64,000 nt of DNA from contig NC_080567.1 of NCBI RefSeq assembly GCF_030253575.1, positions 37,167,501-37,231,500 of the forward strand, given 5' to 3'. Of the stretch, positions 10,675-61,802 are shown piece after piece. The notes under the pieces are model-generated. The model saw only the letters and a program-made list of their open reading frames with translations, had not been told where the DNA came from and ran no database searches. The stretch's first letter is position 1. Every line of letters starts with the position of its first letter. This DNA is from Rhododendron vialii (Eukaryota; Streptophyta; Magnoliopsida; Ericales; Ericaceae). The translations under genes and the position numbers were made by a program.

Positions 10675-10818
10675 ACTTCGGTTTGCAGCGCAAATGAATC
10701 TTGTTGAATCCTAAAAACATATAAGTGCACACAAGTACAACAAATGTTCAAAATTTGTTACAATAAAACAGGGACAGGAAAGTGTGGGTAAAGCAAGTGA
10801 TTTCAGTTTAAGACATAC

Positions 10819-16189: not shown

Positions 16190-16627
16190 TGGCCATGGTC
16201 ACTTGCTTGCATCATCTGTGGCGCTGGCGCATGCAGGTAGTGGAGAACTAACTTGCTCACACACAGCAACTCCAGCAGCAGCCGCCAAAGCAAGAGAATG
16301 CAAATAGGGATCAGAGGTAAAGCTATTCAGTCAAGCGCATAACAAAACTTTTCCACTCTGAGTTTCTTGGGCCGGTCTTACCATTCCATCGTGGAGTCGA
16401 TCCGCTTCGTTCTATACTGTAAACCCGACTCCTTCACTGCAACTTCGAACCAATCCTATCAATAACTTCACTACACCGGGAAATTGCCCTGTTATCACGA
16501 GCTTGGAATTCGAGTTAGTAAGATTAGATATCTCTATTAGTCTAGCGCTAACAGAGTCGAAGTCGATGACGAGATTTCCATCAGGCCGCGGTAAGAAAGG
16601 TAGATAGCTTCTCATTCACAAAACGAT
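16190..16627. other. higher-GC island, possible organelle-derived DNA
   Basis: Base composition rises clearly above the surrounding AT-rich DNA, without a microsatellite or transposon structure, and ends at the Copia fossil. A minus-strand frame (16412-16615, 67 aa) spans part of it and matches no family I know. The style recalls plant mitochondrial spacer DNA, but this is only an impression. Confidence 0.25.
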
Positions 16628-18896
16628 TGAGGACGGAGGTCCCAATGAACAACATGGAAAAAAAAAGGGAAATATTTGACAAAAAAGGAGAGAAATATAT
16701 TTTCATTGGATATAGTGATGAGTCCAAGGGATATCGTCTCTATAATCCAAACACAAATAAATTTACGATTTCTCGAAATGTGATATTTGATGAAGCTGCT
16801 GCGTGGAAGTGGGAGGACAATTCCTTTCAAGAGCCAAAGTTTTTTGAGCATGATGATGCAGGACATAAACGAGAAACTTTGACTCCAGACCCAAGTCCAA
16901 CTCAAAGCCCACGGACCAGCCCAGAGAGCTCATCATCGGATGATCTCAATCCAACAAGAAAGGTACATTCCTTACGGGATATATATGACTCGTGTGATTT
17001 TGCCTTCTTTACTTGTGAACCACATAATTTTAAGGAAGCTGCAAAAGAAGAAATTTGGCTAAAAGCAATGAATGAAGAAATTGCAACTATTGAGAAAAAC
17101 CACACATGAGAGCTCGTTGACTTGCCCAAAGGAAAAGACGTAATTGGTCTTAAATGGGTTTACAAGACCAAGTACAAAGAAGATGGATCCTTCCAAAAAC
17201 ACAAGGCCCGCTTAGTGGCAAAAGGCTATTCCCAACAACTTGGAATAGACTTTAATGAGACTTTTGCTCCAGTCGCAAGGATGGAGACAATACGGGCAGT
17301 CTTGGCCTTACCCGCACAAAACGAGCTTCTCGTATATCAGCTCGATGTCAAATCTGTCTTTCTCAATGGTAAACTAGAAGAAGAGGTTTATGTGGAGCAA
17401 CCACAAGGCTATACAGTCAAAGGAAAAGAAGGCAAGGTGTATCGACTTCGGAAGGCCCTCTACGGCTTGAAGCAAGCACTGTGAGCTTGGAATAACAATA
17501 TTGACAAGTACTTCTGTCAAAGCGGATTTCAAATAAGCCAAAGCAAACCATCCCTATATGTCAAAAAAGGAGGTACGCAAGATTTTCTCATTATTTGCCT
17601 TTATGTTGATTTAATCTACACAGGCACCAATGTAGCAATGCTCGATGAATTTAAAAATGCTATGATGATGGAATATGAGATGACAGATCTAGGCCTTATG
17701 AGATATTTTCTCGGCATTCAAGCAAGGCAGTCCAAAGGAGAGATTTTTATCTCTCAAGAAAAATATCTTGAAGACTTATTAAAGAAATTCCGCATGAGCA
17801 ACTGCAAACCAGTCTCTACTCCACTCTCTTTAAATGAGAAGTTGCAGTTAAATGATGGAGCGAAGAAGGTCGATGCTATGGCCTACCGAAGATTGGTTGG
17901 ATCGCTCAACTATCTTACTCATACAAGGCCTGATATTGTGTATTCTGTAAATCTTATCTCGAGATTTATGCATGAGCCGAGCAAGCTACACTATGCAACA
18001 GCCAAGCGGATCCTTTATTATCTCCAAGGGACGAAGAAATTCGGCATCATGTACACAAAAGAAAAAGACAGCAAGCTTATTGGCTACACCGATAGTGATT
18101 GGGCTGGATCAATCGACGATCGAAAGAGCACATCTGGCTATGTATTTTGTTTGGGTTCTTAAATAATTTCTTGGAGTTCTAAAAAGCAAAGGACAATTGC
18201 ACTATCATCGGCAGAAGCAGAATATATGGCAGTTACAGATACAACTTGTGAAGCAGTATGACAGAGAAGGATTCTGTATGATATGGAGCATAAAGAGGAA
18301 GGCCCTACAATTATCTTCTACGACAATATGTCAGCCATAGCAATGAGCAAAAATCCAGTTTTTCATGCAAGGACAAAGCATATCGAGCTTCGTCATCATT
18401 TTATCAGAGACTTGGTGCAGAAAGGTGAAATTCAGCTTGAATTCGTCAACACCGAGGAGCAGCCTGCGGACATCATGACCAAATCAGTAGCATCAGAAAA
18501 ATTCTCTCAGTTTCAAGAGATCATGAAGATTACAAATTAAGGAGGAGTGTTAGAACAAGTAATTTGTAATCTTCTAGAATGATGTAGAATGAGTATTTAA
18601 ATATCTAAGTTTAAAATAATTAGAAGTGTGTAGAAGTAATAATTACACTAGAAGATATTTGTATGGGTAGGACTAGATAATTCTAAAAGAAGCATGAAAG
18701 ATGTTTTGTAATTAAGCACTAGAGAATTCTATGTTGGTGGAAGTGCTCTATAAATAAAGCCTTGTTGTACTCACTTTGATGCAATGAAAATCTACTAAAA
18801 GCCTTTTACAACTTGTAACATCTCTTACCCATCCTTTCTTTATAAATCTCATTCTCTTGTCCAATTTACTTCAAAATCTAACCTAGCACCCCAACA
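16628..18896 (+). mobile_element. 5'-truncated Ty1/Copia fossil
   Basis: Parts present in order are the end of the integrase region, reverse transcriptase, Copia-type RNase H, a purine-rich tract, and a 3' LTR. The 5' LTR, gag, protease and most of integrase are missing. The element is broken, with roughly four breaks in the remaining coding part. The amino-acid signatures are still easy to recognise, so it is not very ancient, but with one LTR its age cannot be estimated. The 3' LTR end lies inside an F-box gene exon. Confidence 0.9.
18548..18896 (+). repeat. 3' LTR of the Copia fossil
   Basis: The 349-bp LTR runs from TGTTAGAACAAG to CACCCCAACA, giving the TG...CA termini of Copia LTRs. 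It is preceded by the purine-rich tract AAGGAGGAG. No second LTR was found in the window. Confidence 0.8.
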
Positions 18897-19348
18897 ATTA
18901 CATGATACCAATATGCTCGCTGGAGCTGTTCACGTGCCTCTGCCTTGGCAAGCAGGTAATCTGGCAAATCCATCCCCTTAAAAAGCTGCCAAAGAAAAAA
19001 CAGTCAGCGGACATAGATTAGAACAATCTGACATTGATTAGAACTGAATATGCAGTGAAACTGAATATGCAACATACATACCTGTTGCTCCGGGCGGCAG
19101 AATTGACCCAAGCACCTTAAAATTTGAGACGGCAATAGGTGGTACACAATCCTGAAATTCTGCTCCTCTTGTAGATGGCTGATCGCTCTAAACATCTTTT
19201 TAGAAGTCAATTGAAGCTGAAGATGTTGCTTCCATGGCAGCCAAGTGACGATTCGCCGGATGACGTCGTCTGGCAAGTACACGTCGAATGCCGGAGTTGT
19301 ACGGCGAGGGGTGGGCTGCCGCCGAAGAGAAGGGGGCAGCTTCACCAT
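18897..19348 (-). pseudogene. F-box gene copy B, cut by Copia LTR
   Basis: Exon 19082-19348 (minus strand) starts with a true ATG. It encodes MVKLPPSLRRQPTPRRT, then YLPDDVIRRIVTWLPW and LQLTSKKMFRAISHLQEE, an F-box core, and ends PEQQ at a GTATGT donor. A second exon begins at 18985 after a CAG acceptor, in phase, and reads LFKGMDLPDYLLAKAEAREQ and onward to AYWYHVI, where the Copia 3' LTR begins. The remaining 3' part was not found on the other side of the element, so the gene is 3'-truncated. It is paralogous to 10141-10674 and better preserved. Confidence 0.65.
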
Positions 19349-19640
19349 TCTTCTATTTGCAGAGCAAATGAAGCTAGCAAACTCTTAAAAAAATGGAACT
19401 ACAGAGATTAGAACCAACCACAAATTTACTTATTGAGGAAATGGCATTTTATACCACTGGAATACTGAGCAAAATCAAAGGACAGGACTAGACATTTAGA
19501 CGCATAGTAATTGCTTATGCAGTTATGCGCACACATCTCAAATTAGTGGTCGATGTGCACCATCTATATCATGAAAATGTCCATTCATAACTCCCAAATT
19601 CACCAATTGATATGGCATGCTTCCTACTTGATAAACTTAC

Positions 19641-22373: not shown

Positions 22374-23468
22374 CTTTTTTTTTTTTTTTTGATCCGCAAA
22401 ACACGCCTTAAGGACTTTCATTAACATCCTTTTCCAAAACTGGTACAAGAGAAATGGGAGGATTAACAATCCAATTACATGGAAGAGAGTTTCTTGAAGC
22501 TAAAAAAGCAACTTTATGTGCCACTCTGTTTGCGGCCCTTCGAACCCACTTGAAAAGAAGATTTCCTTCCTTTGCAAAATGTCTAATGTCTATCACCAAA
22601 GCTCTGACATCCCAAGGAGGCACTAATTCCGACACACTTAGATGGATTGCCTGCTGGCTATCGGACTCCGCCTCCACTTCCTTTAGGCCCAAACTGATCA
22701 GCATCTCGCAGGCAGCTCTAATGGCATGGAGCTCCCCTCCAAGACTGGTCCTAACATGAACTGACTTTGCAAGGCCATCCACAATCTTTCTTTTCCAATT
22801 TCGAAGCACAACAGCAGCGATACTCCTAAGCCCGGAGGCAGGAATGGCTGCGTCACAATTTGCTTTAAATCTGCCCTTGTCCGGAGCCCTCCAGGTGGAT
22901 AAATCCTCCTGATTAGCTGGGTTATCCATCTGGACTTTAGGAATCTCAAAAGCTTTTAAAAACTCCATCTCAGCATGGAGAAATGATGTTATTGTATGCT
23001 GTGGGTTAACCTTTGTTTTGTTAAAGACAAAATCATTCCTTGACTTCCATATGTTCCACGCTATGAGAGCCACTCTGCCCATGAGATTAATTACCTCCTT
23101 TACTGTCAAGTTTTCCATCATATCAGCTACCCATGTGATCACAGAGCCATTACCACCCAAATCCCCCAGCGGTTTAATGTTGCACCCAAACCATACCATT
23201 TTGGCCCATGGACACAGAAAAAACAAATGTTCTGTAGTTTCTACTTCCTTCTCGCAGATGGGACACAAATTGTCTACTGAACATCTCCTCTTGAACAGAT
23301 TTTCTTTTGTTCCTAAAATGTTCTTGCAAGCCCGCCACCAAAAACTCCTTATCTTATTAGGCACTTTCATTTTCCACATAACTTTCCAAGCTTCTTTTTT
23401 CAGTTTGAAAGACGATTCAGGCTTCTCTCTTTGACTCTCCAAAATCGCTTGGTGAGCGATATGGTAAT
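22374..23468 (-). mobile_element. 5'-truncated LINE (non-LTR retrotransposon)
   Basis: The minus-strand open frame (stop at 22408-22410) encodes the C-terminal part of a plant L1-type pol. A zf-RVT zinc-binding domain (VPNKIRSFWWRACKNIL, CPICEKEVETTEHLFFLCPW) is followed by an RNase H domain of the RVT_3 type. Its acidic residues can be seen in FKANCDAA, GGELHAIRAACEM and VEAESDSQQA, and its end in ANRVAHKVAFL. Endonuclease and reverse transcriptase are missing. A 16-base poly(A) tail (Ts at 22375-22390 on the plus strand) and 7-bp direct repeats CTTACTT (22367-22373 and 23469-23475) mark both ends. The remaining frame is uninterrupted, so the insertion looks recent. Confidence 0.88.
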
Positions 23469-23475
23469 CTTACTT

Positions 23476-24620: not shown

Positions 24621-27130
24621 GATCAACAGTCATCAATAGTGATAGAGGAGTATTTTTAGTATAAAATTTTGACTTATCTTAAGAGTGTATTTAATGATTT
24701 GGGCCTGAGTGGGTGGGAATTACTTTGGCTTTTATGTACCTACATGTAAATGGCCTGTTACCAAAAATAGTGGTAAAGAAAATCAATTTTCCTCCAAATT
24801 AGATCCTGCAAAAAAATGAGGGATTCTAGCTTTCCTGCGAAATTATTTGTCGAGAGAACAAACACAGTAAAATAAATTTTGATTTTTTTACCTCGCTCAA
24901 CTTCAATGCTTTTGGGAAAACACTTTCACACATCATTCTCAAAACTGAACGGACCCTTAAAAGAATATTTCCGACAAATTACATATGTCGTATCCGACAT
25001 GGTTTGCTGATCATGTCAGAGCTTGGTTATTCTTGGATTTGCTTATTTTGAGATTTTTTTGATCTCTGCTCTCTCTTTGGTATTCTGTCCTCGTTTTGCG
25101 ATTTGTGCTATTCCTCTAGAAAGTCATTAAAATTTTGCAACGTTTTGTATGTTAACGTCAAATGTCAACGTCTTTTCTAAATGGTTAGTTTAGTCTTTTG
25201 ACAGTTGTTCAAGGACATAATAGAAGGAGTAAGATCCGACATGACAAATTAAGAAGAGATTTCAAAACTTCAATGAGCTTAATTTACCTCAACAACTACC
25301 GCAATGGCTCGACATTTTTCCTGCTGCTCGCTCAAGCGACGGGGCGGGATTTCACCGAAATTAAAGGCCTCGTTAGAGAATGTGTGTACCATGGTATGAT
25401 CGATAACCTTCTGGCCGGGTTGGTGTCTCTTTGATGGACCAGCTTCGAGATCTTGGACTAGAGTAAGATTCTTATAATCCTATCGATAAGAGTACGTACT
25501 GACAAATGAAACATGTTATAGTCAAATTCGAAATCGTATTTGACTTGTTAAAAAGCATATTTGAGATCGACTCGTGAACATAGTTTGTAACACTCCAGAT
25601 TTCGGACATGTTAATTTAAAAAAATTTCCATAAGAATTTATTTAATTAATGCAATTCTGTCAAATACCTAGTTGGGATGTTATCCTTGGATAGCGATGTT
25701 GTTGTTAAAAATAAAAAACAACCAAAGTAAATTTGGTTCGTCAATATTATTAATTTCTGTCACCTACTTGATCTTTCGAACTTTTGTAGGCATATAGTAC
25801 GTGCTAGCATCACGTAATTTTTCTATCGAGCCATACAAATTGTTCTTTCTTTCTTTCTTTTTCCTTCAAGTTTTTGGTAACCTACACTTCGGATTTCTTT
25901 CTTTATGGCGCAAGGATGGGGAGAATATATCTTCCACAAGTTGAGCTCTTAGCTGCTGGGTTGTCCGACGACAATGTATTAGAGGCAAAATTAACCGACA
26001 AGCGGAGGAAATTCATGAAAGGCCACATAAAACAAGCGAATGTGTTAATAGATGAGGGTGCGTCGTCGATGATACCAGAGCTGAACGTTGATGCGAGATG
26101 GGCTGTTTGGGCATTTACGTTAGTGCCTAAGCAATCTTTGGATGTCATAGAGGCAAAAACCTTCAGGCAGCATACTGCTAGGTGCCTACGATAGCTATCG
26201 CTTACACCATTATCACTCTCACTCTCGTGATAGGGCGTCCACCCCAGTACTTGTTTCTACTCCCCTGGTGAAGGGGGTGAGCTTATACAAATTTGTTAAT
26301 CAAACGGTGTAAAGGAGTCACCTAGTTCAGTTAGTTGCTAAGGGTGTAAAGGAGTCACCTAGTTAGGAAGCTAATTGTACTCGTCTTTGGATCCATCAAG
26401 ATGTGAAATGAAAACCTATATTAATGAAGGATTCTTCTATATGTTTTTCTCTGGAATTTTAATTCTAGGGCTTGGCAGTGTTTTTGGTTTGTTTCACTGG
26501 GCATTTTTTGGTTTTCTTTGGGCTTTAGTTGGTTTGGGTGTATGTTGTAGAGTATGGCTGTGGCTAAGCGCTAAACTTAGTTTAATATTGAAGAAACTCA
26601 TGCACTTTCTAACTTCTTGTCGGTATGACTGCATTGAGAGTGATTTATTGGGTTCACTCTAGTTTTGTATACACAATATAGCTCCGTACCAGTCGAAAGG
26701 CATTGAGAAGGCAACCGAACTTTTTGTCTGTCGGAACCCGATCGATAGTCGAAAACATTGAGAAATGTCCTACTCTAGATTATTCGCCAAATGGTATGTC
26801 GTGTTGACTTTGTTTTCTGCTACTTGGATGTTTCATTATTGATTAGAGGTGTGGAAAGTTGGGAATTCCCTATGCAGTTGGGAAGTGTTACACTAGCTAG
26901 ATTTCTAATTGGTAGTCGGTGCGAAAACATTGTGTTATGTCATGGTGAGGGTCAAGGTAGTGTGGTTCATCAGACCACTTCTAAACGGTTGACATTCGTC
27001 ATGGTCCTTTCACTGACACCATCAGGTCCGTTAAACCTTATTCATTGACTTGACAAGTTTAGTTGTTCATGCAAAAAATTCCTTTCCATTGTAGGTTAAA
27101 GATCACTTTGTATGTATTTTTCTAGCTTCT
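24621..27130. other. no supported gene; unassigned frames
   Basis: Plus-strand frames at 25198-25434 and 25874-26194 (including PQVELLAAGLSDDNVLEAKL) have some coding look but match nothing I know and lack clear exon context. They could be decayed retrotransposon gag/pol or host gene pieces. A duplicated phrase GTAAAGGAGTCACCTAGTT occurs at about 26310 and 26346. Confidence 0.3.
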
Positions 27131-34900: not shown

Positions 34901-36048
34901 ATCTCCAATGGACTCAATTAAGTCACTCATTAAGGTGGGTGGCTAAATCTTTAACTAGTGGGTGTGAAAAAAACTGTTCCAATGGATTAGCTAATTGAGT
35001 CCGCAACTTTGTTGATTAATAAGTGATCACTCAATAATTTTGGTCATTCACTTATGGAGGGAGAGAGAGTAGAGGAGGGGGTCTAACTCCTATCACATTA
35101 TTAGATTTATTGTATTTTTATTTAATCACTAATCAATTCTTTTTAGCCATTCTATTGGGCAGACATTAACTCTTTAAATTAACCATTACCTATCATCACT
35201 TGATAAACGGTCTCACTTTAATCAAAAAGTGCATGTTATCCAGCCATTTTGGCCTCTCTATTGGAGATGTTCTTAGAAAATAGCAAATTCCTAAGTTCCA
35301 AAGCCTTGACAATGTGACTAACTCTTTTGAGGTTAACACTATAGCTACTACTCAAATGTCTAAAAAATGACTAAACTACCCGCAATGGGTACCACAAATT
35401 TCTCAACCATTTTTTTTATCGGCAAAAGAAAATTCATATATCATGAAGAAAAAAACGTGAAGACAAATTCACAACCGTTATATGTGGGTTGGGTGGATGA
35501 CACTTCGTCCAAGTTTCCAACCTATTGTAGGAAATATTGTTGCCTTCCACTCGGCATCTTAATTATGACATGGTCCTCAAAGCCCTGTAAAAGTATGAGA
35601 TAATGTATTAATTTAGTGCTGTTAAAGAAAAGTGACTCCAAAGTCAAGAATAACTGAAGTAGTTTGCAAAGAATTTCAAATTTACATTGCAAGTAAGATG
35701 TCTGCATGGGGGCCATAACGTATATGGGTTTTTTACTTGAGGGGCGGTATGATAATTTTGATTAATATTAGGGTTCAGATTAGTATATGGTCTTTACTTT
35801 AAAGTTGATTAGATATATTGATCGATCCACTAACTTCTTAGACTTAGAGTGCCCCAACAACAGCAAAGTGGTCTGGCCTCGCCTTTTTTCTCTTTCGAAT
35901 TTAAAACGAAAAAGTATTAAGATGACATTCTTTGCAATAATTAAACTGTCAAATCTCATGATTTTTTCTCTAAGACTCCCACTTTAAGTAAATTTAATGT
36001 CATCCTCAAATATAATTCGTTAAGGAAGCATCATTTGTTCCATTCTCT

Positions 36049-36155: not shown

Positions 36156-36892
36156 ATGGGTATGATGATGGTGATCAAGAAGATTAGTCTCCTCTTCCTC
36201 GTCGTTTCTGTATCACTTCTGCCAACCTCATTTGCAGGTGTTTGTCTTCTGTAACTGCAGCTTTAGTTAACGAGAGAGAGAGAGAGAGAGAGCTGTATTT
36301 GAGTTACACTGTGTGCAAAACTATAATATATCAAAGAGTTACTGGACGCTCATAAACCTACCCATAACTTAAACTGAGCCCCATGTCGCATACAGAAATT
36401 CTCTTTTGCTTTTAGTTAGATTTTCAGGGGTTTTAATCACTTTAATTCTTGTACTTATTTCTTAGTTTTTAAGGTTTTGAAACTTTTGTCAGCACAAGTC
36501 TGACCTTGTTACCTTATGTTTTGCTAGTACATGGCATGTGGTCTTAATTCTAAATTAATTTTCTACTCATTCTTTTTTACTTATACAAAGTTCGCTTACT
36601 AATTTCGCAGGCCGACGATTGGTTGACAACATGGCCGATGAAGTAGACGCAACTCATGAGGCACGGCACCCCTCTCTCTCTCTCTCTGATATGTCATGTG
36701 TCTGGGCTAGTTTACGTACATTTTTCTAATGCTACATTATTTGTGTCGTTAATCTGTTTCCAATGCATATGTATATAGGAAGTCAGTGGAATTCACGTGG
36801 AAAGGCTGCTGAGAATGAACGCAAAGGACTACGGGAAATATGATCCAGCACCAACTTTCGTCAAACCTCCTTACAAACTCATTCCCAACTGA
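36156..36892 (+). CDS. CIF-type secreted peptide hormone precursor
   Basis: The 81-aa precursor is encoded by exons 36156-36237, 36611-36660 and 36779-36892. Residues 1-27 form a signal peptide (KKISLLFLVVSVSLLPTSFA). An acidic linker follows (VDNMADEVDATHEEVSGIHV), then RLLRMNAK. The last 21 residues begin DYGKYDPAP and end FVKPPYKLIPN. This is the layout of CASPARIAN STRIP INTEGRITY FACTORs: a C-terminal 21-mer opening with Asp-Tyr (Tyr sulfated by TPST in the known peptides), a proline-rich middle and an end close to PPFKLIPN. Known CIFs are perceived by SGN3/GSO1 and GSO2 and control the endodermal barrier or embryo and pollen surfaces. Intron 1 is GT-AG and holds a GA microsatellite; intron 2 seems to use a GC donor. 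The Tyr in PPYKLIPN replaces the usual Phe. The tissue cannot be told from sequence. Confidence 0.86.
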
Positions 36893-45682: not shown

Positions 45683-47074
45683 CTTCTTCATCGGTCTTCG
45701 CGGTTAAAAAAGGTACTGTTCGATCACGTCAGTGTCGGTCTCATTTGTTGTCTCTATAGCAACGGTGCATCTGCGCCATGACGATGTACATCTAACTCAG
45801 GGTTCAGTTAGTTCTAGGAAAATATGGAAATCATGTGGTTTCCCTTTTTGTTTTTGTTCAATTAATGGCTCTTTCTTCGCCTCCAATTCCGGATCTCTCT
45901 GGCTTCTTCTTATTTTTACAATTTTGGCTCACTCTAGTTTCCCTTGCAACGTAGCAGAAAATCGACTTGAAGGTTGTGTATTTTTCGTCAATATTATTTC
46001 TTTTCTTTTTTTCTTTCTGTTCAATGTTTGTTTGCTGTTTGGTGGCGGCTGAAAATACAGAACTCTTTTCAGATTCAGATATGCTATAAGATAGGGATAA
46101 TTATTTCTGGAGATCGAAATGTTTTTAAAGTATCAAATTACTCCGAGTAGGCTTTTGTTAAACGGTAGGTTGTTGATTTGGACTTGACTGTCATTATTGT
46201 TCTTGACTTGTAATCCATTTCCAATTATTGTGTTATGTCTCTGGATTATTTGGTGTCTGGTGAAGTTGGAAGCCGTAAATTCCATCTTTCTTATGAAACT
46301 GTTGCAGATGGAGATTCTAGAAAAATATTACTCCATATTTTGTATTTTTTTTTATAATAACTATTTTGTTAGGAATCATGCAATTCTAGAAATAGGCTGA
46401 TTTGTTAGAAGCGCATTCCTTTGTTATCAGAGGTGAGATTTATTTGTTACGGTACCGCAATGTTTTGTTTGTGTTTTGGCCTTTTTACTTTGCGTTTTCG
46501 TGTTTCATTTTGATGCTTAGATGGGTGTGATCTTCTTAATATTCTAGATTGTATTCGGTAGAAGTCTCAGCAACTCACTTTGTCTAGTTAAGAAGGTTTC
46601 ATTCTAAAGTCTAGCGAAATCTTCAGAAAGAATGAGAAAATGAGGCGTTGAAACTATTTCTGTAGTCTCTTCATTGATTTCTTTCTGGCTGAAATGACTA
46701 GAGGGTGGGCGTTATTCAATATGTGGAGAATCATGTTTCAATGAAGATTTATTTACCGGGAAAGCAAAAAATGTTTCAATGAAGATTTCTTTTTGTTTTA
46801 ACAAAACTTGGGGTTTATTTTCTTAGATTTTCATCAAATGTTTGGTGTTTGTGCTGGCACTTGTCATCTTTATCATAGTACATGTATGGTTTTGTCTCTA
46901 TACTTTAGTGCGTAATTGATCTTCATACTAATGGTTGACTAATTCTATTTTATGCTATTTTTCGAACAACTAGGTAGGTTTTCAAAGGTCCTGACATAGC
47001 AATTCTTCTGAAGTATCAGTGCAAGTGATAGTTTCTGTTTGAGTTGATTTATCTGGTGCATATGAGTGATTATT

Positions 47075-50000
47075 ATGGGGTCTGCTTGTTGCGTGGCTTC
47101 TAGAGAGACAACTATAGTGGCTGCTAGGGAGACAACTATAACGAATGGACCAACCAGCGAAGTTGTACAAAGGAATGTTAGGTATTCACCATCATGGAGT
47201 TTCCGGTGGGATAACAGAAGGCGAGTGGCAGGGGAAGAGACTGTGAATTGGCTTTCTGATGGAGTGAGCAGGAGTGGAGGATTGGGAGTTAAATCTGGAA
47301 CAACAGTAGAAACTGCTTATGCATCAGAAGAAGGAAGCCCATTGGATAGCTCTCAGACACTGACAGGGCCGAGGTCTCCAATCTCGGAGAGAAATTCAGG
47401 AACTTCGAAGCTTCCTTCATCAGGTAAATTTCCATCTGCTGAGCACTGCTGTGTGCGAAAAGATTCCAAAAGCCATCCCTTCCCCTAAAATGTTGATACC
47501 TTGGGAGGTCTATTGCAGGCTCATTAACCTTTTGAGCTACATGGCAGAAATGGAACTCGTTATAAAATTGTAGTTAAGATTATTGGTGCATGACGTAATA
47601 TATGACTGTATAATTGATGTATGTGAAAGGATGAGAAGATAGATGCGTGGTTCAGATGAAGCCAAAAATACCAAAGGCATGCCTATCTTAAAAGCGAGCA
47701 AATGAAGGGTTGTACGATATTTTAAGTTTTATGTTATTAGGTTTTTATTCCTTGGCAACTTGGCATATTGTTGCTTTAGCCTTGAAAAGTAATTTGAGAA
47801 TCTACATCTATTTAGTCTTGATTAACATCTATTGAAAATCAACATTTATGTTAAATTAATGTATTAGTTTTTTTTATGCTTTAAGATGACCTAGCTGGAA
47901 AAAAAATTAAGATTTCCTGTGTGTGAGCACGTGCTGGAGTACTTTTTGGATTCTATTGAACAAGGGAGACATAGAGCTTTGTTCGCTCCACTCAACAACC
48001 CTCGTATTCTCAACCTGTGTCTATGGATGCTGAGATTCTGTAGTAACAACATTCTGTAATTCTGAAACAATTCCTGGAGGACAGGCCTTAGGATCATGAA
48101 TTTGCGTAGAGGTTTGTGTAGGTAAAGATAAAAGGATCTAACGGCGCATAATTGATCTTTTTCCTTAGTTATCCCTTGCCAAATCCCTACCCAAATCCAT
48201 GATCCAAACACAGGCTAAAGGTTGGGCTATTGATAATATCGCAGTGATGAGAGTGACATGTTGATGCAAGTTACGACTTTGATGATAGTGATGAGCGATG
48301 ACATAGATAGTGACCATGATACTGAGCTGGAAGAATGTGCTAACTACTAACTGTGAATATGATGTCGGAAATAGACCTGTTTCATATCACCGTTCGATAA
48401 GGAGTACCAAAAACGATGTCTTTGCATAATATGGAATCCAAACATTCATTCACACTTCATTAATGATCGTAATGTGCAATGAAATTGCAACACATGTAAC
48501 AATTTTATGAGATCCTCTTGTTTTACATATGAAGTTCGTATTGGCAGACATGAACCTTTGGCTTGCATTAGATTTTGCTGATGTTATACCTTTTAAGGTG
48601 AAGCTGTTTTCTCACTCTGGAGATGCAATAGTGCCTATGTTACATTGATCCTTCATTTTGGCTCAAGTACCCGTGTCGATGTGTTGGACACCCGTATCCG
48701 TTTGGACACTCGGATCCTTTAATTGTTATGATTCTTACAGAAAGTAATGTCAAATTAGCTAGAAAAGCGTTATTACGAGTATTTCACATGAACAGGAAAT
48801 AGCAAAAACATATTTTTCTTAACCCCTTCTTGTTTAAATAAACTTCTAAATATAATTCACGATACAAAATCTGAATAATTATGCAATAATACTACGAATA
48901 AGTGTTCAGGAAGATTCCTGGTACCCATACCCAATCTGGGGACACATATCCTAGTATCCTAAGATTTAAGTTTAGGAAGGTCTGATGCTTGGATTTGCAC
49001 ACGCACCTGATACTCGCACCCGAGTCCATGTAACATAGGTGTCGACAGCTAATTACAGGGATGGGACTTGGAATGTTGATATATTTTATGTATATATTAT
49101 CTTTGAGAGCTGGAAAAAAATATAATGATGGCTCCATTGTTAAACACACTGTTGCTTGCAATCCATTTGCTGCTATCTTCAATAACTTGATGCCCCTGCT
49201 TATTTTTCTATCTACTGCCCTATTTATTTGCTTTCTTTATCTGTGCAATGCCTTCTGAAGTTTAAAGTGCCTCTCATTGTATTATGAGAATCTTGCCTGC
49301 TTCTTTCGTGAATATTCCCCAGTTTTGAATAGTATGGGAGCTGACTCTCAGTAAGAAATGTGGCCTGGGATGTTTTGTGTAGGGCCATAACAGTGGCCTG
49401 ACGTGGGTCTTTTACTCTTTGGCACTATATTTGATTATTTTCCAATGCATTGGCATTATCGTTTGTTGTGTTGTATTGATATGTTCTCTGCTTGTGTACA
49501 GCGGATCAATCACATTTTAGAAGTGTTCCGTTAGAGGTATGTGCTGTACAATGATGGACTTCAGTGCACTCCACTATATTTGCAAATATCATTTTGTTGG
49601 GCTCACATAGTCCTTTTATGCATATTAGGTGAAGGAGCCAACAGAATCTCCAGCAGTTTCAGATCCGTCTCCCATGAAACTGCCACCTCCTTCGGTGCAT
49701 TCAATATCATCATTATCTCCATCCCCTGTGTCCTCCAAAAACCACCTACTTCCTGTGAGCCCAAATCCATCACGGTGGTCCCATAGTTCCCCAGGACACC
49801 ACCTACGACAAGGGTCTGATAGCCGGATTCCAGGACATAAGTCACCAAACTTCTCAATCTCCGAAGAACCATCTTTTCGATGGAGCAATGAGTCAACCGG
49901 GGCGTCTAACCATGGATCCTCAGATGGTTGGTCCTTGCCTGCCTTCTCTGAGCTCATGGCAAATTCTCACAGAGAAAGGTGGTCTTTTGACAGTGAGTCA

Positions 50001-50573
50001 TTGGGGTTCAATTTTGATAAGGTAACCAGGTCTAGTAGCCGACTTTCATCATCTGTGTCCATCGATATGCGAACCTGTGGTGTTTGCTCCAAGCTGTTGA
50101 CTGAGAAATCTTCATGGGGTAGCCAGAAAATTATTGCTACTAATGAGTTAGCCGTGGTTGCTATTCTAGTTTGCGGACACGTTTACCATGCTGAATGCTT
50201 GGAGAATATGACACCTGAAATCAACAAGTATGACCCTGCTTGCCCGGTTTGTACTTTTGGGGAGAAGCAAGTTTTGAAATTGTCTGAGAAGGCCTTGAGA
50301 GCAGAAATGGATTTAAAGGCTAGAAACAAGAGATGGAGGAATCAGATTGTGAGTAGTGATCTTGGCAGTCATTCTGGTGTGCTTGAGGGTCGGAAAAGTG
50401 GTGGAATTGAAGAGAAAGGTCTCAAGATGGTCTCGAGTTCCAGCATGAAGAGCTCATTTGGGAAGCCTTTCTTGACGCGACACTTCTCGTTTGGGTCAAA
50501 AGGGACTAGATCCTTGTTAGAGAATCACTCTACTCGAAAGAAGGCATTCTTCTGGTCAAAATCTAGCAAGTAG
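47075..50573 (+). CDS. RING-H2 zinc finger protein, putative E3 ligase
   Basis: Exons 47075-47423, 49502-49536 and 49629-50573 give 442 aa in continuous frame. The protein is a probable ubiquitin ligase. The RING-H2 domain spans about residues 278-336: C278 and C281 (CGVCSKLL), C310, H312, H315 and C318 (VCGHVYHAEC), then C333 and C336 (CPVC), all eight ligands present. The N-terminus MGSACCVASRE has Gly2 for possible myristoylation and Cys5-Cys6 for possible palmitoylation, suggesting membrane attachment. Residues 130-270 are Ser/Pro-rich and probably disordered. The C-terminus is basic (STRKKAFFWSKSSK). Leader exons lie at about 45500-45712 and 46973-47074. An intron 50599-50973 splits the 3' UTR, 25 bases after the stop. 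Intron 1 holds a MITE-like element (48630-49042). The substrate is unknown. Confidence 0.9.
48630..49042. mobile_element. MITE-like element in RING gene intron 1
   Basis: The ends are inverted: CCTATGTTACATTGA on the left and, read on the other strand, CCTATGTTACATGGACTCGG on the right. Inside are CCCGTGTCGATGTG and GATACTCGCACCCGAG, typical of a family of short plant elements rich in CGTGTC and ACCCG words. No coding capacity and no clear TSD. Confidence 0.5.
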
Positions 50574-52979: not shown

Positions 52980-53866
52980 TTGTGTTGTTGGCTTTAATTT
53001 GTTAACACAACGAAGTTAGGATTAATGTGGGTGGGAAGTTTGTTTTCCAATTTTGTGAATCTTAAGAACAATGAGTGTATAGTACAAAGAAATAACCCTC
53101 AATTTGGCCCTGTTTATGGGACCAAATAAATTCATACCCAAGGAGTGTGAGAAAGGGCATGCATACATTTTTGATGGGGTGAATCAAACTACAAAGACTG
53201 CTCACTAGGGCAGGAAAACTACCCTATTTTGATGGGCTAGTGTATTTTGATGGGAAGAAATACACTATTTTCATCTCGACGCATGCAAATACATTGGACA
53301 TAAAATTAGCGTTTTGATCCTAATATACTACATTGGTTAAGTATAAAGGTGACTCTATGCATGTGTTTATATATGTACAAATCAAACGAGGGTCTTGATA
53401 CTAAACTAATGTAATTTATCAAAACTAAGATTTAAGGTTTTTTTACGATATTAGTGGCGATCAGAAGTGATGTCAAATGGTAGCTACGAAAAAATCTAAT
53501 CTTTCTTTATGCTAACTTTATTTCTCTCATATGTAGACAATATTGGTGATGCAGATGATGATGATCATGGAAGATATCAACGACAGTTATTAATTCTAAA
53601 TGCAAAATTAATTTTGACATGAATTTTTTTTTCATTCTCTAAATACACACGTGATGAAGTGTAAAAATAGAGCAGGGTCACGTGACCTAACCTAACCCCA
53701 CCGTGACCGCCAAAAAGCCGTGCCTGTGCCCACCGACACAGACGCCCCGCTTCGTCTTCTCAGTTTAGAACCGTGCAAATACAGTCAACCTCTCCACTCT
53801 CTCTCTCTCTCTCTCCACTTCCACCAGAACTCTCTCTCTCCTCTTTCCCGCCTATTTAATCCTGCA
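52980..53866. other. intergenic and IMPL2 promoter
   Basis: AT-rich spacer, then from about 53690 a GC-richer, CT-rich leader. A frame from 53720 is open into the CDS but has no ATG before 53867. Confidence 0.5.
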
Positions 53867-56800
53867 ATGCTCTCTCAATCCCACTTCCTCTCTCTCTCCT
53901 CGAATCCCTCCCGCTCTCTCCTCACCCGCCAATTCCCCTCCCCTCCCTCAACCCTAACTCTCCCGATCCCTCGCCGCACCAAATTCACTCCGACGACAAT
54001 AATGATCTCAAACTCAAAGTTAGCTGATCACACGGAACCAATCCATCACTTCGACCTCGACCGATTCGCCGGGGTCGGCAACGAGCTCGCCGACGCCGCC
54101 GGAGAAGTTATTCGCAAGTACTTCCGCAAGAGCTTTGACATTCTCGATAAAGATGATTTGAGTAAGTTCTTTTTAGAGAAATTGGTATCTTTATTAGTTT
54201 TTAGTGTTTGTGTGTTTGTTTGATGTGAGTGTGGTGAATTTTTTGATTAGGTCCTGTGACGATTGCTGATCGGGCGGCTGAGGAATCGATGGTGTCGATT
54301 ATAGAAGAGAATTTCCCTTCTCACGCAATGTAAATGAAATTTTCAAGTGTTTTTGGATGCTTTATTGCAACATTTTCATTTCATTTTGAATCTTCGATCA
54401 CCTGCATATTGGAGGAAGGACATACCTAGGGGCGGTAAGCCCGGGCGACTGTACTCACGTTTCAAATTTTATTTTTATTAGCATTGTAGTAGTTTTTTTC
54501 TCAAGAACTTTGAATTTGTATTATTTCACCTGCCCAACCTCGCTTTGAACAATTAAACACCCAACACCCTCCCAACAAAGAGTTTTTTGGGACAAAAAAT
54601 ATATTTTTAGCAGTACTCTTATTTTCCTATACTATTTCGCTTTTTAATATGAATAAGAATGCACCATATTGCATGCAGCTATATCGCAGATGAATATATC
54701 TTAGTAATTGAGCATGGTGATCGAGAATGTACATGATAATCTTTCTTAAAGTATTTGTAAATTTTTTGTTGGCAAAACTAAATATAGTTTTCTAAATTTT
54801 TTTTAATGTTTGCCCAACCAAAATTCCTGCGTCCATCAACTCCATCCATGTATTGGAGGCAATCCTAGTGGGGATGTTTTTAGAAACGAAATAAAATTGG
54901 CATTATCTGATCGGCTAAACTAATTAAGTTGAAAATGATTGTGTTATGCAATTCCTTCCCATCGAAAAGGGACGTTATTTACAGTATCATAATCAAATAT
55001 GATGTAAATCAAATATGATGTATCTTTCTATATCAAATGAATAGAGCTGATAGAAAAAAATTGTGCTTCATGCTTATCTTAAAGGGAAAAGAGGGATTGA
55101 AAATGTTTTATTTAGTACAACCATGTAATCAGGATCAGTAATGTGGGTGTGCTTATTTTCTTGATATGATTTATGTATGTATTTTCCTTCACTCCCTTCA
55201 CTTATGAATGTGGAGCAGAGGGAATCAGGTGCTTATATGAGACACTTGTATCTGAACTTTGTAGTTTCATTGTTTTTACTGAAAAGTATTTGATTATTCA
55301 AATTGCAGTTTCGGAGAAGAGAATGGTTGGAGATGTAAGGAGAAATGTGCAGAATATGTTTGGGTTTTAGATCCGATAGATGGAACTAAAAGTTTTATTA
55401 CTGGTATTTCTTCTTAACTTTTGGGTTGAGGTTGAACTTATTGAGTATGAACCTAAACTATCCGCGAAACTGATTCCTTCTTGGACCATATTCCAGGAAA
55501 ACCCTTGTTTGGCACTCTCATTGCTTTGCTACACAGAGGTAAACCGGTATGCATCATGAGCCATCTCATTTTCTGCAGAAAATGGGGACTAATTTAGAAA
55601 TTAAGATGTAATCTGAACATTAGAATGGGTACAAGGTTATCAATTAAGATGCTTTGGATGTCATTATGCGCTTATTCTGCTGATTATGTATAGTTACAGA
55701 TATGCAAAGCACCATAACTACGTTTGATGGGGTGATTCCCCCTGAGACCTCTACTGTTTGTCGTGTATCAATACGGTGTGACTGTTATGAAGTAGGTAGT
55801 ATTTTGAAAGGAACAAAGTGTTTTCCTTGATCTGTTTACATCCTAAAGTAGTCAAACTATTTCTCATGACAAATGCCTAGATTTTTACCTTTTCTTAGTG
55901 TCACATGGCTTGAGCCTTTCAACCGGGATTAGTTCATGAAGGATGGGTGGTTCCAATTTTAGAGTAATCGTTGTAAGGTTTTAAAACCAACTTCTCCTGG
56001 CATCGCTTTTTCCCTTTCTTCAGACAAGTAAGAAAGGTAAAATTCTGAATTGAACTCTCACTAGTTATGTGTATAACGGATCAATGAAAACCTCTTGTTT
56101 TTGCATTGTGATTCAACAAGGACTTACTTGTGTATTGTGTTACGGAGTGATCCTTTTGGTTGTAGGTTGGAAAGTGCTCTCCTATGTAATCTTTGCTTTT
56201 AATTTGGAGTGTTTCCGTAAGTCAGACTGTGCCAAATTGTACTAGATAGGTGAATACAGAATATTTCTCTATGCTTTAAAGTGATGTTACCATCATTTTA
56301 TCTGCGGGTCATTGATTGGTTAAGTTTCTTTTATCCTGTACTTAAACATACAGCAGTTTGGATGGACTACATCGGTGGAAATCTCCGTCCTTGTATCCTG
56401 TCCTTTAATTATGCTAAACAAAGAGATTGCTGATTGAGTCTAAGTGATTGCTTGTTACGTTGTTCATAGCGCTTCACCATCTTTACAAAAGATCATAGTT
56501 TCTTCCTCATTTCGTTTTCCTCCAGATTCTTGGCATAATTGATCAACCTGTTTTAAGAGAAAGATGGATTGGGATAAATGGAAGGAAAACTACGCTGAAT
56601 GGGGAAGAAGTATCCACACGCAATTGTGCAAAGCTTTCACAATCCTATCTGTATGTTCTTTCATTGCTAATAGATTGCTTTTCTGGAAAAAAAAAATACA
56701 GATTAATAAGGAAGAATTTTGTTGCAGGAAGCAAACCCATAATCTCTGTTTTAAAAGCCTGCACTTTTGAGCGAAGTCTTTATCATTGTGCCTTTCAAGT

Positions 56801-58366
56801 TCGAGGTGTGGTAAATTTGTGGTTTCTCTCTTTTTTCTCACATTTGCTCTTTTCTGATTTAGGTACACAACTAGTCCTCATCTTTTTAGTGGAGATGCTG
56901 AAGTGGCGTTTGCTCGAGTTAGGAGTAAGGTATGCCCAACTTTTATATCATTTAGGGAAAGAGAAATTATAAGGTATGCCCAACTTTTATATCATTTAGG
57001 GAAAGAGAAATTATAATCTCACTTGGCATCAAGAAGCATGTTTCCTTCAGTGCTGGTGAATGATGATTCAGTGTCATGTCCCAAGAAACACCTGATCATT
57101 CCATAGCTCAGATCATACTGTTGTGAATTATGACCATATATATGCAATTACATTCGATGCCATTTTGTCTTGTGAAGCTTCTGCTGTCATTATAGCTAAT
57201 TGTTCAACCTTTGAGATCTAGAGATGTCTGAGGATCTTTGGATGGGACGCTTCATATTTGTCATGGGCATGATACTAGTTTGAGAAATGCAAGTCTTCCC
57301 ATTTCCCCCCCCCCCCCCCACCTGCCCCCCCTTTTTTTTTCCCAATTCTATAGATCTGTCCTTTAATTTTCTTCTGAAACCAAGTGGAGCTTGATTTGTT
57401 TGGTCTGTGGTCTTTTCATGATTTCTTTTCTGATATCTATTTTCTTTAGATAATTATATTGATGGTTCAGAGTAAATGAGGATCAAAGCTATTGCTTTAG
57501 GCATTTTCTAGTTTAGAGAAAAACTGAAAGCAAAATCGAATCAAATGTGTTTAGTTTATTTGACCACGCTGGCCAATTGGAAATATATTTAGAACTAAAT
57601 ATGGGAACTTATGAAGTTTTTACTAGTACTGATTAACAAGTTCATGTAATTGAACTTTTGCAAGTTAGCTCATGAGACCTTTTTTTTGGTAAGAAACCTT
57701 TTCATACCAGTGACAATACTTTATGATTTGGGGATCTCATTATGTATCTTATTGTTCTAACATTCAGGTATTATAGCTTTTCGGTACTCCTTTGATACTT
57801 GGGTATCCTATTTTGCTTTCAATGTAGAATACAACTTTCAGCTTATTCAACATGTAATTTTCCCCTTATCTTTGCCTTTTATGGTTACAGGTAAAAGTGC
57901 CTCTGTATGGCTGCGACTGTTACGCTTATGCTCTTCTCGCCTCAGGTTTTGTGGATCTTGTGATTGAGTCTGGTCTTAAGGTGAGTTGTACCCTTTCAGC
58001 TCTTTGCACTTTGTCCCATTTTGTGAAACCTTTGGTTATGTGTTCCACAAGAATTTCGCTCTCACATTTATTATATTGCATTCCTTTACAGCCATATGAT
58101 TTCCTTTCGCTAATACCCGTGATAGAAGGCGCTGGAGGCGTTATAACTGATTGGGGAGGGCATCAACTTCAGTGGGAAGCTTCTATAGATTCACTTCCAG
58201 AAAGTACGCTATTTATGTGGCTTACTTTCTGTATCTTACATGTGAAACTTGTTTTAGTTCACTCACAGCCAGTCCATACCTTGTGTCATTTCCAGGTTTC
58301 AATGTATTAGCAGCCGGAGGCAAAGAGCTTCACCAACAAGCTCTAGAGTCATTGGAATGGCAATGA
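53867..58366 (+). CDS. IMPL2: histidinol-phosphate phosphatase, plastid (IMPL2)
   Basis: An IMPase-fold, Mg-dependent phosphatase; in Arabidopsis IMPL2/HISN7 removes phosphate from histidinol-phosphate in histidine biosynthesis. Exons: 53867-54161, 54251-54329, 55309-55403, 55497-55546, 56526-56650, 56863-56929, 57891-57980, 58092-58203 and 58296-58366. All introns are GT-AG, giving 327 aa. Residues 1-47 are Ser/Pro/Arg-rich without acids (MLSQSHFLSLSSNPSRSLLT), as in a plastid transit peptide. Metal-binding motifs are all present: VTIADRAAE, GEENG (127-131), WVLDPIDGT (143-151) and the closing PVIEGAGGVITDW region. GKPLFGTLIALLHRGKPILG, LYGCDCYAYALLASGFVDLV and HQQALESLEW are characteristic of IMPL2 rather than of IMPL1 or VTC4. 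The start is the first ATG in frame. Exon 6 is followed by a 44-bp tandem duplication that repeats its splice donor. The gene looks functional. Confidence 0.95.
56927..57014 (+). repeat. 44-bp duplication copying a splice donor
   Basis: Two perfect adjacent copies (56927-56970 and 56971-57014) each begin AAGGTATGCCCAACTTTTAT. The first contains the last bases of IMPL2 exon 6 and its GTATGC donor; the second offers an equivalent donor 44 bases later. Use of the second would add 44 nt and shift the frame. Confidence 0.95.
57306..57340. repeat. C and T homopolymer tract in IMPL2 intron 6
   Basis: Runs of about 14 C, then seven C, then eight T, broken by short interruptions. This is a likely site of sequencing or assembly error. 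Confidence 0.85.
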
Positions 58367-59240
58367 AAATTTGACCGAAGCAATTTAAGATGGTAACATT
58401 TTTCAGCTCTATTAATGGTTCACCTACTTGTGCTTAGAATAGTTGTGGGCTCTGGAGACAGACACAGAATGACTTGAGGTGAACCGTGGAAGTCGAGATT
58501 AAACAAGTGGAATAGCGATTTGTTTTTCTGATTATGTCTTTTGATAAAGTTTTTAAGCAGTCAATTGCAAGGCAACCTGTCAAATGTAAGACCTATGATA
58601 ATCTATTCCCAATAAAAATAGGTTTAAAATAAGACTTGATTGGTGTTACCATGTTCATCGAAGTGTGACTGAATTGAACTTGTAGTGAATTAGTGGTAGG
58701 GGTAAAAAGGGTGGGGTTCTTTCTGTGCAAATTGGATCTTGTTCAATTTTAATGTCGAATAGACTCGAATCAATTTCAATATGCTGATAGTGAGAAACAC
58801 CACCATATGCCGTTGTTTGCTTAATCGTGATCTGCGGAAGCCCCCTCCGCCTCCGGCACACCGCATCATAATCCTGTTTTCTGCCAGAAAATAGAAAACA
58901 CTTAAAAGTTCACTAAGCCGTTGTTCAAGATGCTACTCTTAATTTGACCATTTCAAAAGAGTCCTCTTGCAATCATTGGTGTCTGTTATTTCTGTTGCAG
59001 AATGCTAATAATAGATGCCAAAACTAACGGAAGGTCAAAAATGGCCTGAAATCTTAGGAAATCCAAAATGTAATGTGGCTGCCACATTCTTCCTCCATTT
59101 CCGACCAAGAAAAACGCAGAAACAGAAAAGCGAAAAATAAACAAACCAGAAATAGAAAACCAGTCCCCTTTTTTCCTCACAATCATCCCTTAGTGGGTCT
59201 CTTTCGAATTCATCTCCCTCGCACAGGAGGGCTGCTAGAG
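58367..59240. other. IMPL2 3' end and RLK leader, no other gene
   Basis: The 3' UTR of IMPL2, spacer, and from about 59000 the leader of the receptor kinase gene. The leader contains an ATG at 59073 in frame with the receptor (see finding). Confidence 0.5.
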
Positions 59241-61802
59241 ATGGAAAAGAAGCCAATGGCAACCCTCCTGTTTGTTTTCTGCATCTTCACCACTGCCACC
59301 TCCTCCGCCGTCACCTTCACCCCAAAAGACAATTTCTTAATCGACTGCGGCTCCGGCGCCCAAACCACCCATTCTGACGGCAGACTCTTCTTATCTGACC
59401 TAAACTCCGGCCAATATTTAGCCTCACAGAGCCGTGATATTTTAGCCTCAATCCCATCAGGAAATGTGTCTTCCCCTATATACCTCTCGGCCCGAATCTT
59501 CACCGAGGAAGCCACTTACACCTTCCGAATGGCCCGACCTGGATGGCACTGGATCCGTCTCCATTTCTACCCATTTAAAACCAACGAATATAATCTCCAA
59601 AATGCGAGGTTCACGGTCACGACGGACAGTCTGGTCCTCCTCCATGATTTCGGTGTCGAAAACAACAACAATACCGATCAGTGGTTTTTCAAAGAGTACC
59701 TCGTCAATGTCACATCAGAGCGTTTTTCTATCAAATTCACACCCCTAAAAGGCGACCCTGCTTTTATCAATGCCATCGAGGTGGTCTCTGCCCCTGACAT
59801 TTTGATCACCGACTCTGTTTCCGCTCTGTTTCCTGTTGCCCAAATCGATGGGTTTTCAATGCAATCGTACCAAACGGTTTACAGACTCAATGTGGGTGGC
59901 CCAGAAATCACATCGAAAAACGACACATTGGGCCGAACTTGGGCAACCGACGGGAATTTTCTGGCACACAAGGAGTTGGGCAAGCAAGTTTCAGTTTCGC
60001 CGACGGTGATCAAGTATCCGGAAGCTGGGTCCCCCTTGATTGCGCCCCAATCGGTCTATGCATCGGCCGTGGAGATGGGCGATGCGAATGTCGCGGCCGC
60101 AAACTTCAATGTCACGTGGAATTTGGACATCGACTTGTCGTACCAGTACTTGGTACGTCTCCATTTCTGCGATATTATTAGTAAATCGATGGATGATTTG
60201 TACTTCAATGTGTTTGTCAATGGGAAGAAGGCCATTTCCGGGATAGACTTGTCGACTTTGACAGGGGGCTTGGCGACGGCTTATTACAAAGATTTCGTCG
60301 TCAATTCTTCCATGGTTTCTTCCCCACTTAGCATTCAGATTGGCCCGTGGACAGAGGGGACGGGAGCGATAGACGCACTTTTAAATGGTCTTGAGGTTTT
60401 CAAAGTGAACAATTCGGTTGGGAGCTTGGATGGGGAGTTTGGTGTCGATGGAAACACGGCCAATGGTGTTCACAAAGGCACGGTGGCTGCGGTTGGGTTC
60501 TGTATGATGTTTGGTGCCTTTGTTGGATTAGGCGCGGTGGCAGTCAAGTGGCAGAAAAGGCCTCAGGATTGGCAGAAGAGGAATAGCTTCTCTTCCTGGT
60601 TGCTCCCGCTTCATGCGGGAGACGCTAGCTTCATGAATAGCAAGAGTTCGATGGGCTCTCGAAAAAGCCAATTCTTTTCGTCCACAACGGGCTTAGGCCG
60701 GTACTTTTCGTTTAACGAACTGACCGACGCCACCAAGAACTGGGACTCGAAAGCAGTGATTGGCGTTGGTGGTTTCGGGAACGTGTATTATGGAGAGCTT
60801 GATGATGGGACGGTAGTCGCTGTCAAGCGTGGAAACCCACAATCCGAGCAGGGGATCAACGAGTTTCAGACGGAAATCCAGATGCTATCAAAACTCAGGC
60901 ACCGTCACTTGGTGTCTCTTATCGGGTATTGTGACGAAAACACCGAAATGATCCTGGTGTACGAATTCATGTTGAACGGGCCGCTCAGGGACCATCTCTA
61001 CGGCAAGGATCTGAGCCCGTTGACGTGGAAACAAAGGTTGGAAATATGCATAGGGGCAGCCCGTGGACTCCACTACCTCCACACGGGGGCGGCCCAGGGC
61101 ATAATCCACCGAGATGTGAAGACCACAAACATTCTGCTCGACGAAAACTTCATTGCCAAGATGGCCGATTTTGGGCTCTCCAAGGATGCTCCCTCGTCAG
61201 ACGGCCAAAACTACGTAAGCACCGCGGTCAAGGGAAGCTTCGGGTATCTGGACCCGGAGTACTTCCGAAAACAACAACTGACAGACAAATCCGATGTTTA
61301 CTCATTCGGGGTGGTTTTACTAGAGGTATTATGCGCTCGACCGGCGCTTGATCCTGGTCTACCGAGGGAACAGGTGAACCTGGCCGAGTGGGCAATGCAG
61401 TGGAAGCGGAAGGGGTTGCTGGAGAAGATCATGGACCCGGTTTTAATCGGATCGATCAACCTGGAATCGATGAAGAAGTATGCTGAGGCAGCGGAGAAGT
61501 GCTTGGCGGAGTACGGCGTCGATAGGCCTACAATGGGAGACGTGCTGTGGAATTTGGAGTATGCTTTGCAGCTGCAGGAGGCTTCGGCGCAGGGGAAGGC
61601 TGATGATGAGAACAAGGAACTTGCTGGCACTGCCGCCGCATCTCCTCCTTCCGCAGCGGTTGCCCCTGCTGCGGCTGCAACGACAGATAACCGTCGGATT
61701 TCTCCGCCTGAACAGAGTAGGAACCCGGCAGAAGTTCCGGTGATCGATGAGCACTCGGGGACTGCGATGTTCGCTCAATTTGCAGCCATCAATGGCAGAT
61801 GA
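59241..61802 (+). CDS. CrRLK1L malectin-like receptor kinase
   Basis: A single exon encodes an 853-aa plasma-membrane receptor kinase of the Catharanthus roseus RLK1-like family (FERONIA, THESEUS1, HERK1, ERULUS), which monitors cell-wall state. The signal peptide is residues 1-23 (TLLFVFCIFTTATSSA). An extracellular tandem malectin-like region spans about 28-400, with N-glycosylation sites such as NVTS and NNSV. The transmembrane helix lies at about 414-438 (VAAVGFCMMFGAFVGLGAVA). The kinase domain spans about 490-770: GVGGFGNVY (from 508), VAVK with K529, HRDVK with D625, DFG at 643-645 and activation loop TAVKGSFGYLDPEY. It is an RD kinase with all catalytic residues. The C-terminal tail is Ala/Pro-rich. 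LGRYFSFNELTDATKNWDSK and PREQVNLAEWAMQWKRKG suggest closeness to At5g61350 (ERULUS/CAP1) or At5g24010, not resolved. The ATG at 59241 was chosen because it directly precedes the signal peptide. Confidence 0.96.
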   Translation: MEKKPMATLLFVFCIFTTATSSAVTFTPKDNFLIDCGSGAQTTHSDGRLFLSDLNSGQYLASQSRDILASIPSGNVSSPIYLSARIFTEEATYTFRMARPGWHWIRLHFYPFKTNEYNLQNARFTVTTDSLVLLHDFGVENNNNTDQWFFKEYLVNVTSERFSIKFTPLKGDPAFINAIEVVSAPDILITDSVSALFPVAQIDGFSMQSYQTVYRLNVGGPEITSKNDTLGRTWATDGNFLAHKELGKQVSVSPTVIKYPEAGSPLIAPQSVYASAVEMGDANVAAANFNVTWNLDIDLSYQYLVRLHFCDIISKSMDDLYFNVFVNGKKAISGIDLSTLTGGLATAYYKDFVVNSSMVSSPLSIQIGPWTEGTGAIDALLNGLEVFKVNNSVGSLDGEFGVDGNTANGVHKGTVAAVGFCMMFGAFVGLGAVAVKWQKRPQDWQKRNSFSSWLLPLHAGDASFMNSKSSMGSRKSQFFSSTTGLGRYFSFNELTDATKNWDSKAVIGVGGFGNVYYGELDDGTVVAVKRGNPQSEQGINEFQTEIQMLSKLRHRHLVSLIGYCDENTEMILVYEFMLNGPLRDHLYGKDLSPLTWKQRLEICIGAARGLHYLHTGAAQGIIHRDVKTTNILLDENFIAKMADFGLSKDAPSSDGQNYVSTAVKGSFGYLDPEYFRKQQLTDKSDVYSFGVVLLEVLCARPALDPGLPREQVNLAEWAMQWKRKGLLEKIMDPVLIGSINLESMKKYAEAAEKCLAEYGVDRPTMGDVLWNLEYALQLQEASAQGKADDENKELAGTAAASPPSAAVAPAAAATTDNRRISPPEQSRNPAEVPVIDEHSGTAMFAQFAAINGR

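Follow-up and report, generated by a model that had tools for sequence, protein, structure and literature searches.

A probable CIF1/CIF2-class peptide gene with tyrosine at core position 16, and its collinear duplicate, in Rhododendron vialii

Introduction

The CIF (CASPARIAN STRIP INTEGRITY FACTOR) pathway has been described in Arabidopsis and rice (PMC10827307), and the AtCIF1, AtCIF2, AtCIF3, AtCIF4 and TWS1 peptides are listed in the table of PMC11534595, excerpts of which also place members of the family in the seed (TWS1) and in pollen (CIF3/4) and review AtCIF3 as a ligand acting through GSO receptors. In that table, Arabidopsis CIF1 and CIF2 start with DYG, carry Asn or Ser at position 5 without a second Tyr, have P7, P9, PP and Phe16, end in KLIPN, and derive from precursors of 83 aa; AtCIF3 and AtCIF4 carry Trp5. 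Outside Arabidopsis, the soybean peptide GmXAP3 (DYGRYDPSPSLSKPPFKLIPN; GmXAP3a/b, Glyma.13G201100 and Glyma.12G235600) contains Tyr5 and Phe16 and was detected in xylem sap, with some sap forms bearing Tyr2 sulfation and Hyp7/9/14 (excerpts of PMC9369194), and the tomato peptide SlCIF1 (Solyc01g109895; DyGRYDPTpALSKPPFKLIPN) also contains Tyr5 and comes from an mRNA detected in roots only (excerpts of PMC9028419). Wherever a sulfated Tyr is marked in the peptide tables of these two papers, it is Tyr2. The excerpts of PMC13074997, PMC8055973, PMC10741408, PMC10868138 and PMC9372746 hold neither a further CIF1/2 peptide from beyond Arabidopsis nor contact data.

Here we compare these systems with a locus of Rhododendron vialii that lies in a window of 64,000 nucleotides (the whole stretch analyzed, C11:37167501-37231500) from a genome of 532.6 Mb and 13 contigs. 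We read the locus, from sequence and with a probability of roughly 0.9, as a functional CIF1/CIF2-class precursor gene, probably orthologous by position to soybean GmXAP3a/b and tomato SlCIF1.

Results and discussion

Gene model and family assignment

From an ATG at 36156 to a stop at 36892 on the forward strand, three exons encode a product of 81 aa (MGMMMVIKKISLLFLVVSVSLLPTSFAGRRLVDNMADEVDATHEEVSGIHVERLLRMNAKDYGKYDPAPTFVKPPYKLIPN). Exon 1 (36156..36237, +, 82 nt) provides the start codon and the signal-peptide-like MGMMMVIKKISLLFLVVSVSLLPTSFA(G), ends at the donor CAG/GTGTTT (slash at the splice site), and is followed by a GT-AG intron of phase 1 (36238..36610, +, 373 nt; 339 nt and of equal phase in a duplicate gene on contig C5). 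Exon 2 (36611..36660, +, 50 nt, a length it also has in the C5 copy) encodes the pro-region RRLVDNMADEVDATHE, and a GC-AG intron of phase 0 (36661..36778, +, 118 nt) separates it from exon 3 (36779..36892, +, 114 nt including the stop), which holds the remaining pro-region and the mature CIF peptide, a predicted 21-mer DYGKYDPAPTFVKPPYKLIPN (36827..36889, +) delimited by homology to CIF2, GmXAP3 and SlCIF1. At the precursor N-terminus, 12-residue hydropathy peaks at 2.7 over residues 10-21, a hydrophobic stretch that is typical of a signal peptide as predicted from hydropathy alone. The precursor length falls within the 76-102 aa of the five Arabidopsis members (excerpts of PMC11534595), and the product carries, like the CIF1/2 class, a single C-terminal mature peptide in the range of 21-24 aa that starts with DY and would presumably be released by cleavage.

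Three of the four splice sites of the window gene are canonical (CAG/GT, GCAG/G and ATAG/G), and the fourth, the exon-2 donor, is the uncommon GAG/GC (GAG/GCACGG), which fits the usual consensus in part only and on which the original prediction did not remark. A minority of introns are known to be of the GC-AG class, and the 81-aa model has its strongest support in the C5 duplicate, which has GAG/GT (GAG/GTATGT) at the matching donor position; splicing at the GC donor could nonetheless be weak. Enumeration of splice sites gave 173 three-exon combinations ending in KLIPN, among which those with donor 1 at or next to 36237 were viewed, together with two-exon combinations. One alternative exon-2 donor, at 36642 (GAA/GTAGAC), would yield 75 aa with an identical mature peptide, and the position of the C5 donor favours 36660; because the alternative joins the same exon 3, the mature peptide is independent of the GC donor.

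As to family, the last 25 residues of the product matched a single molecule in the PDB (phmmer, E up to 10), Arabidopsis CIF2 (6s6q, E 8e-5), and a Pfam search of the gene at E up to 10 gave zero matches. The original prediction of a CIF-type precursor of three exons and 81 aa with a C-terminal 21-mer thereby stands on both counts: its coordinates were exact and its start is signal-peptide-like by hydropathy, and the family is borne out by CIF2 as the only PDB match and by the 15/21 agreement with the soybean and tomato CIF peptides.

A collinear duplicate under selection

Searches of the genome itself with the exon-3 query or with the tomato 21-mer returned two places each, the window gene and a site on C5 near 8358603, which is 77% identical to the exon-3 query over query residues 6-37. 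The C5 duplicate (C5:8360352-8358600) has three exons with the intron phases of the window gene and encodes 92 aa ending in DYGTYDPAPEFEKPPFKRIPN. It resembles the window gene in Tyr5 and Phe11, but differs from it in that Phe16 is kept, Leu18 is replaced by Arg (core PPFKRIPN), and the exon-2 donor is a regular GT. Its exon 3 again has CIF2 as sole, weak match in the PDB (E 0.0086). In a blastn comparison of the window with the C5 region, 16 of 31 rows aligned along a single collinear inverted diagonal that runs from 28.8 to 58.4 kb of the window, and the remaining 15, which were set aside, lay off this diagonal and resemble dispersed repeats, several of them matching both strands. Because the two copies sit in a collinear inverted block, they are most likely duplicates that arose by segmental or whole-genome duplication. 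Upstream of the window gene, 267-351 bp before its ATG, a block at 35805..35889 (+) that belongs to the diagonal is identical to the C5 upstream sequence at 69/85 columns (81%; E 1e-13 in a pairwise search), and would be a possible regulatory element. With a collinear duplicate of matching structure, the window gene looks real.

Evolutionarily, dN/dS between the two copies was 0.30/0.78 when 79 codons were compared, 0.17/1.02 for the last 29 codons and 0.18/0.79 for the mature 21 (Nei-Gojobori; few sites, and hence rough values), which points to purifying selection for the protein. It seems improbable to us that the pair, having left the core PPFKLIPN by separate changes (F16Y and L18R), has divided the work, for example by preferring GSO1- versus GSO2-type receptors, or has co-changed with its receptor. 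We consider it quite improbable that the window gene is in early decay, with its GC donor and F16Y reflecting relaxed constraint while the C5 copy does the work: this would suit the GC versus GT donors of intron 2 and the presence of Tyr16 in 0/5 published peptides compared, but the open reading frame of the window gene is intact, the last 29 codons show the low ratio given above, GC-AG introns occur as a known minority, and the C5 copy itself has a core change, L18R, and the weaker match to CIF2 (E 0.0086 versus 8e-5, with queries of unequal length).

The mature peptide among published CIFs

The reading as a CIF1/CIF2-class gene was examined in a position-by-position table of five published 21-residue peptides out of seven, CIF4 and TWS1 being of other lengths. 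Against the sequences in the peptide tables cited above, the window 21-mer is identical to GmXAP3 and SlCIF1 at 15/21 positions each, to AtCIF2 at 13/21, to AtCIF1 at 12/21 and to AtCIF3 at 7/21. Tyr2 of the window peptide corresponds to the sulfation site of its homologues, and Pro7/9/14 to the residues hydroxylated in soybean; Pro7, 9, 14 and 15 and KLIPN are all present, and the core PPFKLIPN is kept at 7/8 positions, Phe16 being replaced by Tyr. With SlCIF1 it shares Tyr5 and the common plan DYG[R/K]YDPxPxxxKPP[F/Y]KLIPN, differing by Lys4, Phe11 and Tyr16 where tomato has Arg4, Leu11 and Phe16 (excerpts of PMC9028419). Residues that the window peptide shares with none of the five are Lys4, Ala8, Thr10, Phe11 (against Leu/Ile) and Tyr16; of these, only position 16 falls inside the KPPFKLIPN end.

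Both tyrosines had originally been called unusual against CIF1 and CIF2. For Tyr16 this holds, as it is absent from 5/5 of the peptides compared, and Phe16 is kept in 4/4 of those of CIF1/2 type. For the second Tyr it does not, as SlCIF1 and GmXAP3 carry Tyr5 in their published tables and it is Arabidopsis CIF1/2 that differ; with Tyr5 in 2/2 published CIF1/2 peptides from outside Arabidopsis and in both copies here, Tyr5 rather than the Arabidopsis Asn/Ser is suggested to be the usual state. Little that may be new is left, namely Tyr16 in the window copy and Arg18 in the duplicate, Tyr5 being already published. The strings DYGKYDP and PPYKLIP did not occur in the main text of a library of 5.39 million papers, and Tyr16 may well have been recorded already, for instance in supplements or plant genome databases.

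Other CIF members in the genome

Scanned at the DNA level for PP[FY]KxIPN, the 532.6-Mb genome gave two places, namely the window and C5 genes; the reversed pattern also gave two places, so that the count by itself is no evidence. This core-pattern scan of the 532.6 Mb turned up no gene with PPFKLIPN, though it would miss one whose core is split by an intron or that lies in a stretch withheld from the search. With AtCIF3 as query, the genome gave one weak match (E 0.9) on C6 (3248427-3248489), in an open frame of 121 residues that ends EEDYGIWNPTPYFGGDNSAPIPHGKVS and contains a CIF3/4-like peptide DYGIWNPTPYFGGDNSAPIPHGKVS followed by a short C-terminal extension. By inspection, this frame is a good CIF3/4-like candidate (DYGIWNPTPYFGGDNSAPIPH). 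The window peptide, with Tyr5 and its IPN end, lacks the DYG.W.P.P start and the ...PIPH or ...PVPH end by which the two Arabidopsis sequences define CIF3/CIF4.

Neighbouring genes

Downstream of the CIF gene, the frame at 49629-50570 is RING-like, with RING matches that stay under the curated cut-offs, and the one at 57858-58307 resembles an inositol phosphatase, again below cut-off. Further on, at 59058-61799, comes a malectin-like receptor kinase, assigned at family level to the FERONIA (CrRLK1L) type; the frames at 47066-47485 and 53696-54220 had no match in Pfam. In the complete blastn comparison of the window with 70 kb of C5, the kinase had no match, and the place expected for it is at the edge of that stretch. 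Excerpts of the soybean papers name Glyma.12G235600 and Glyma.13G201100 as CIF genes (PMC9369194) and Glyma.12G235900 and Glyma.13G201400 as BUPS1 and BUPS2 (PMC7397338; also PMC8012678), so that by gene number CIF and BUPS are three apart in both pairs. Likewise by locus number, tomato SlCIF1, Solyc01g109895, is near SlBUPS, Solyc01g109950 (excerpts of PMC9959574). As judged from gene numbers and a family-level kinase call, the order of CIF, a few genes and a CrRLK1L kinase appears to be common to the three plants. In Arabidopsis, we take BUPS1 to be adjoined by a RING gene and a histidinol-phosphatase.

These neighbours bear on a further proposal of the original prediction, that the peptide represents an extra CIF clade, functionally separate and acting at seed or pollen barriers. 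The change of Phe16 to Tyr, in a core constant across the 4 published CIF1/2-type peptides compared, and the existence of seed (TWS1) and pollen (CIF3/4) members in the family (excerpts of PMC11534595) would speak for it, but the peptide is closest to a CIF expressed in tomato roots and one from soybean xylem sap (both from excerpts), and the genome has a CIF3/4-like gene of its own on C6. Because the published Tyr5 form and the neighbours, by gene number, fit, and the sequence class and gene structure do as well, we take the locus for an ordinary CIF1/2 orthologue and the extra clade to be very unlikely. The gene appears mostly ordinary, an intact and slightly altered relative of the tomato, soybean and Arabidopsis CIF genes.

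There is next to no chance that a random open reading frame acquired a CIF-like end, short and broken into three exons as this frame is, because an equally structured duplicate exists on C5 and the best six-frame match to SlCIF1, 15/21 at the 21-mer, compares with at most 8/21 elsewhere in the window and 7-9 of 21 in simulated windows (first-order Markov, n=8). A six-frame motif scan of the window found KLIPN/DYG at this one site only, with no tandem copies, and no YIYTQ (PSK) site.

Putative mechanism

Functionally, the product of the window gene would most likely act, sulfated on Tyr, as a ligand of GSO1/SGN3-type receptors in the monitoring of the Casparian strip. Following the family, the precursor would enter the secretory pathway, where TPST would sulfate Tyr2 and P4Hs would hydroxylate prolines; a protease would release the 21-mer in the stele, from which it would reach endodermal LRR receptor kinases of the GSO1/SGN3 type by diffusion, and their activation would lead to lignification of gaps until the Casparian strip is sealed. 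The replacement of Phe16 by Tyr is a conservative change that would probably leave receptor binding intact. AtCIF3 has Pro16 and Pro18, and thus neither Phe16 nor Leu18, and because it is nevertheless reviewed as GSO-acting (in excerpts of PMC11534595), not every ligand requires these two residues; given the constancy of Phe16 in 4/4 published CIF1/2-type peptides, however, its change could matter. The pair of core variants, Tyr16 in the window gene and Arg18 on C5, amounts to a natural experiment on what the receptor requires of the PPFKLIPN end, residue by residue.

Other features of the window

Across the whole window, Rfam at gathering thresholds gave no match and ARAGORN no tRNA. Two F-box-like fragments on the reverse strand, at 10381-10710 and 19007-19384, are similar by eye, and copia-type domains (SH3_retrovirus and RVT_2, 16570-18159) lie between them. 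Domains of the zf-RVT and RVT_3 families occur in a non-LTR-type remnant at 22411-23469 on the reverse strand, and a squalene/phytoene synthase family gene fragment (PF00494, E 3.9e-7) lies at 25808-26191 on the forward strand.
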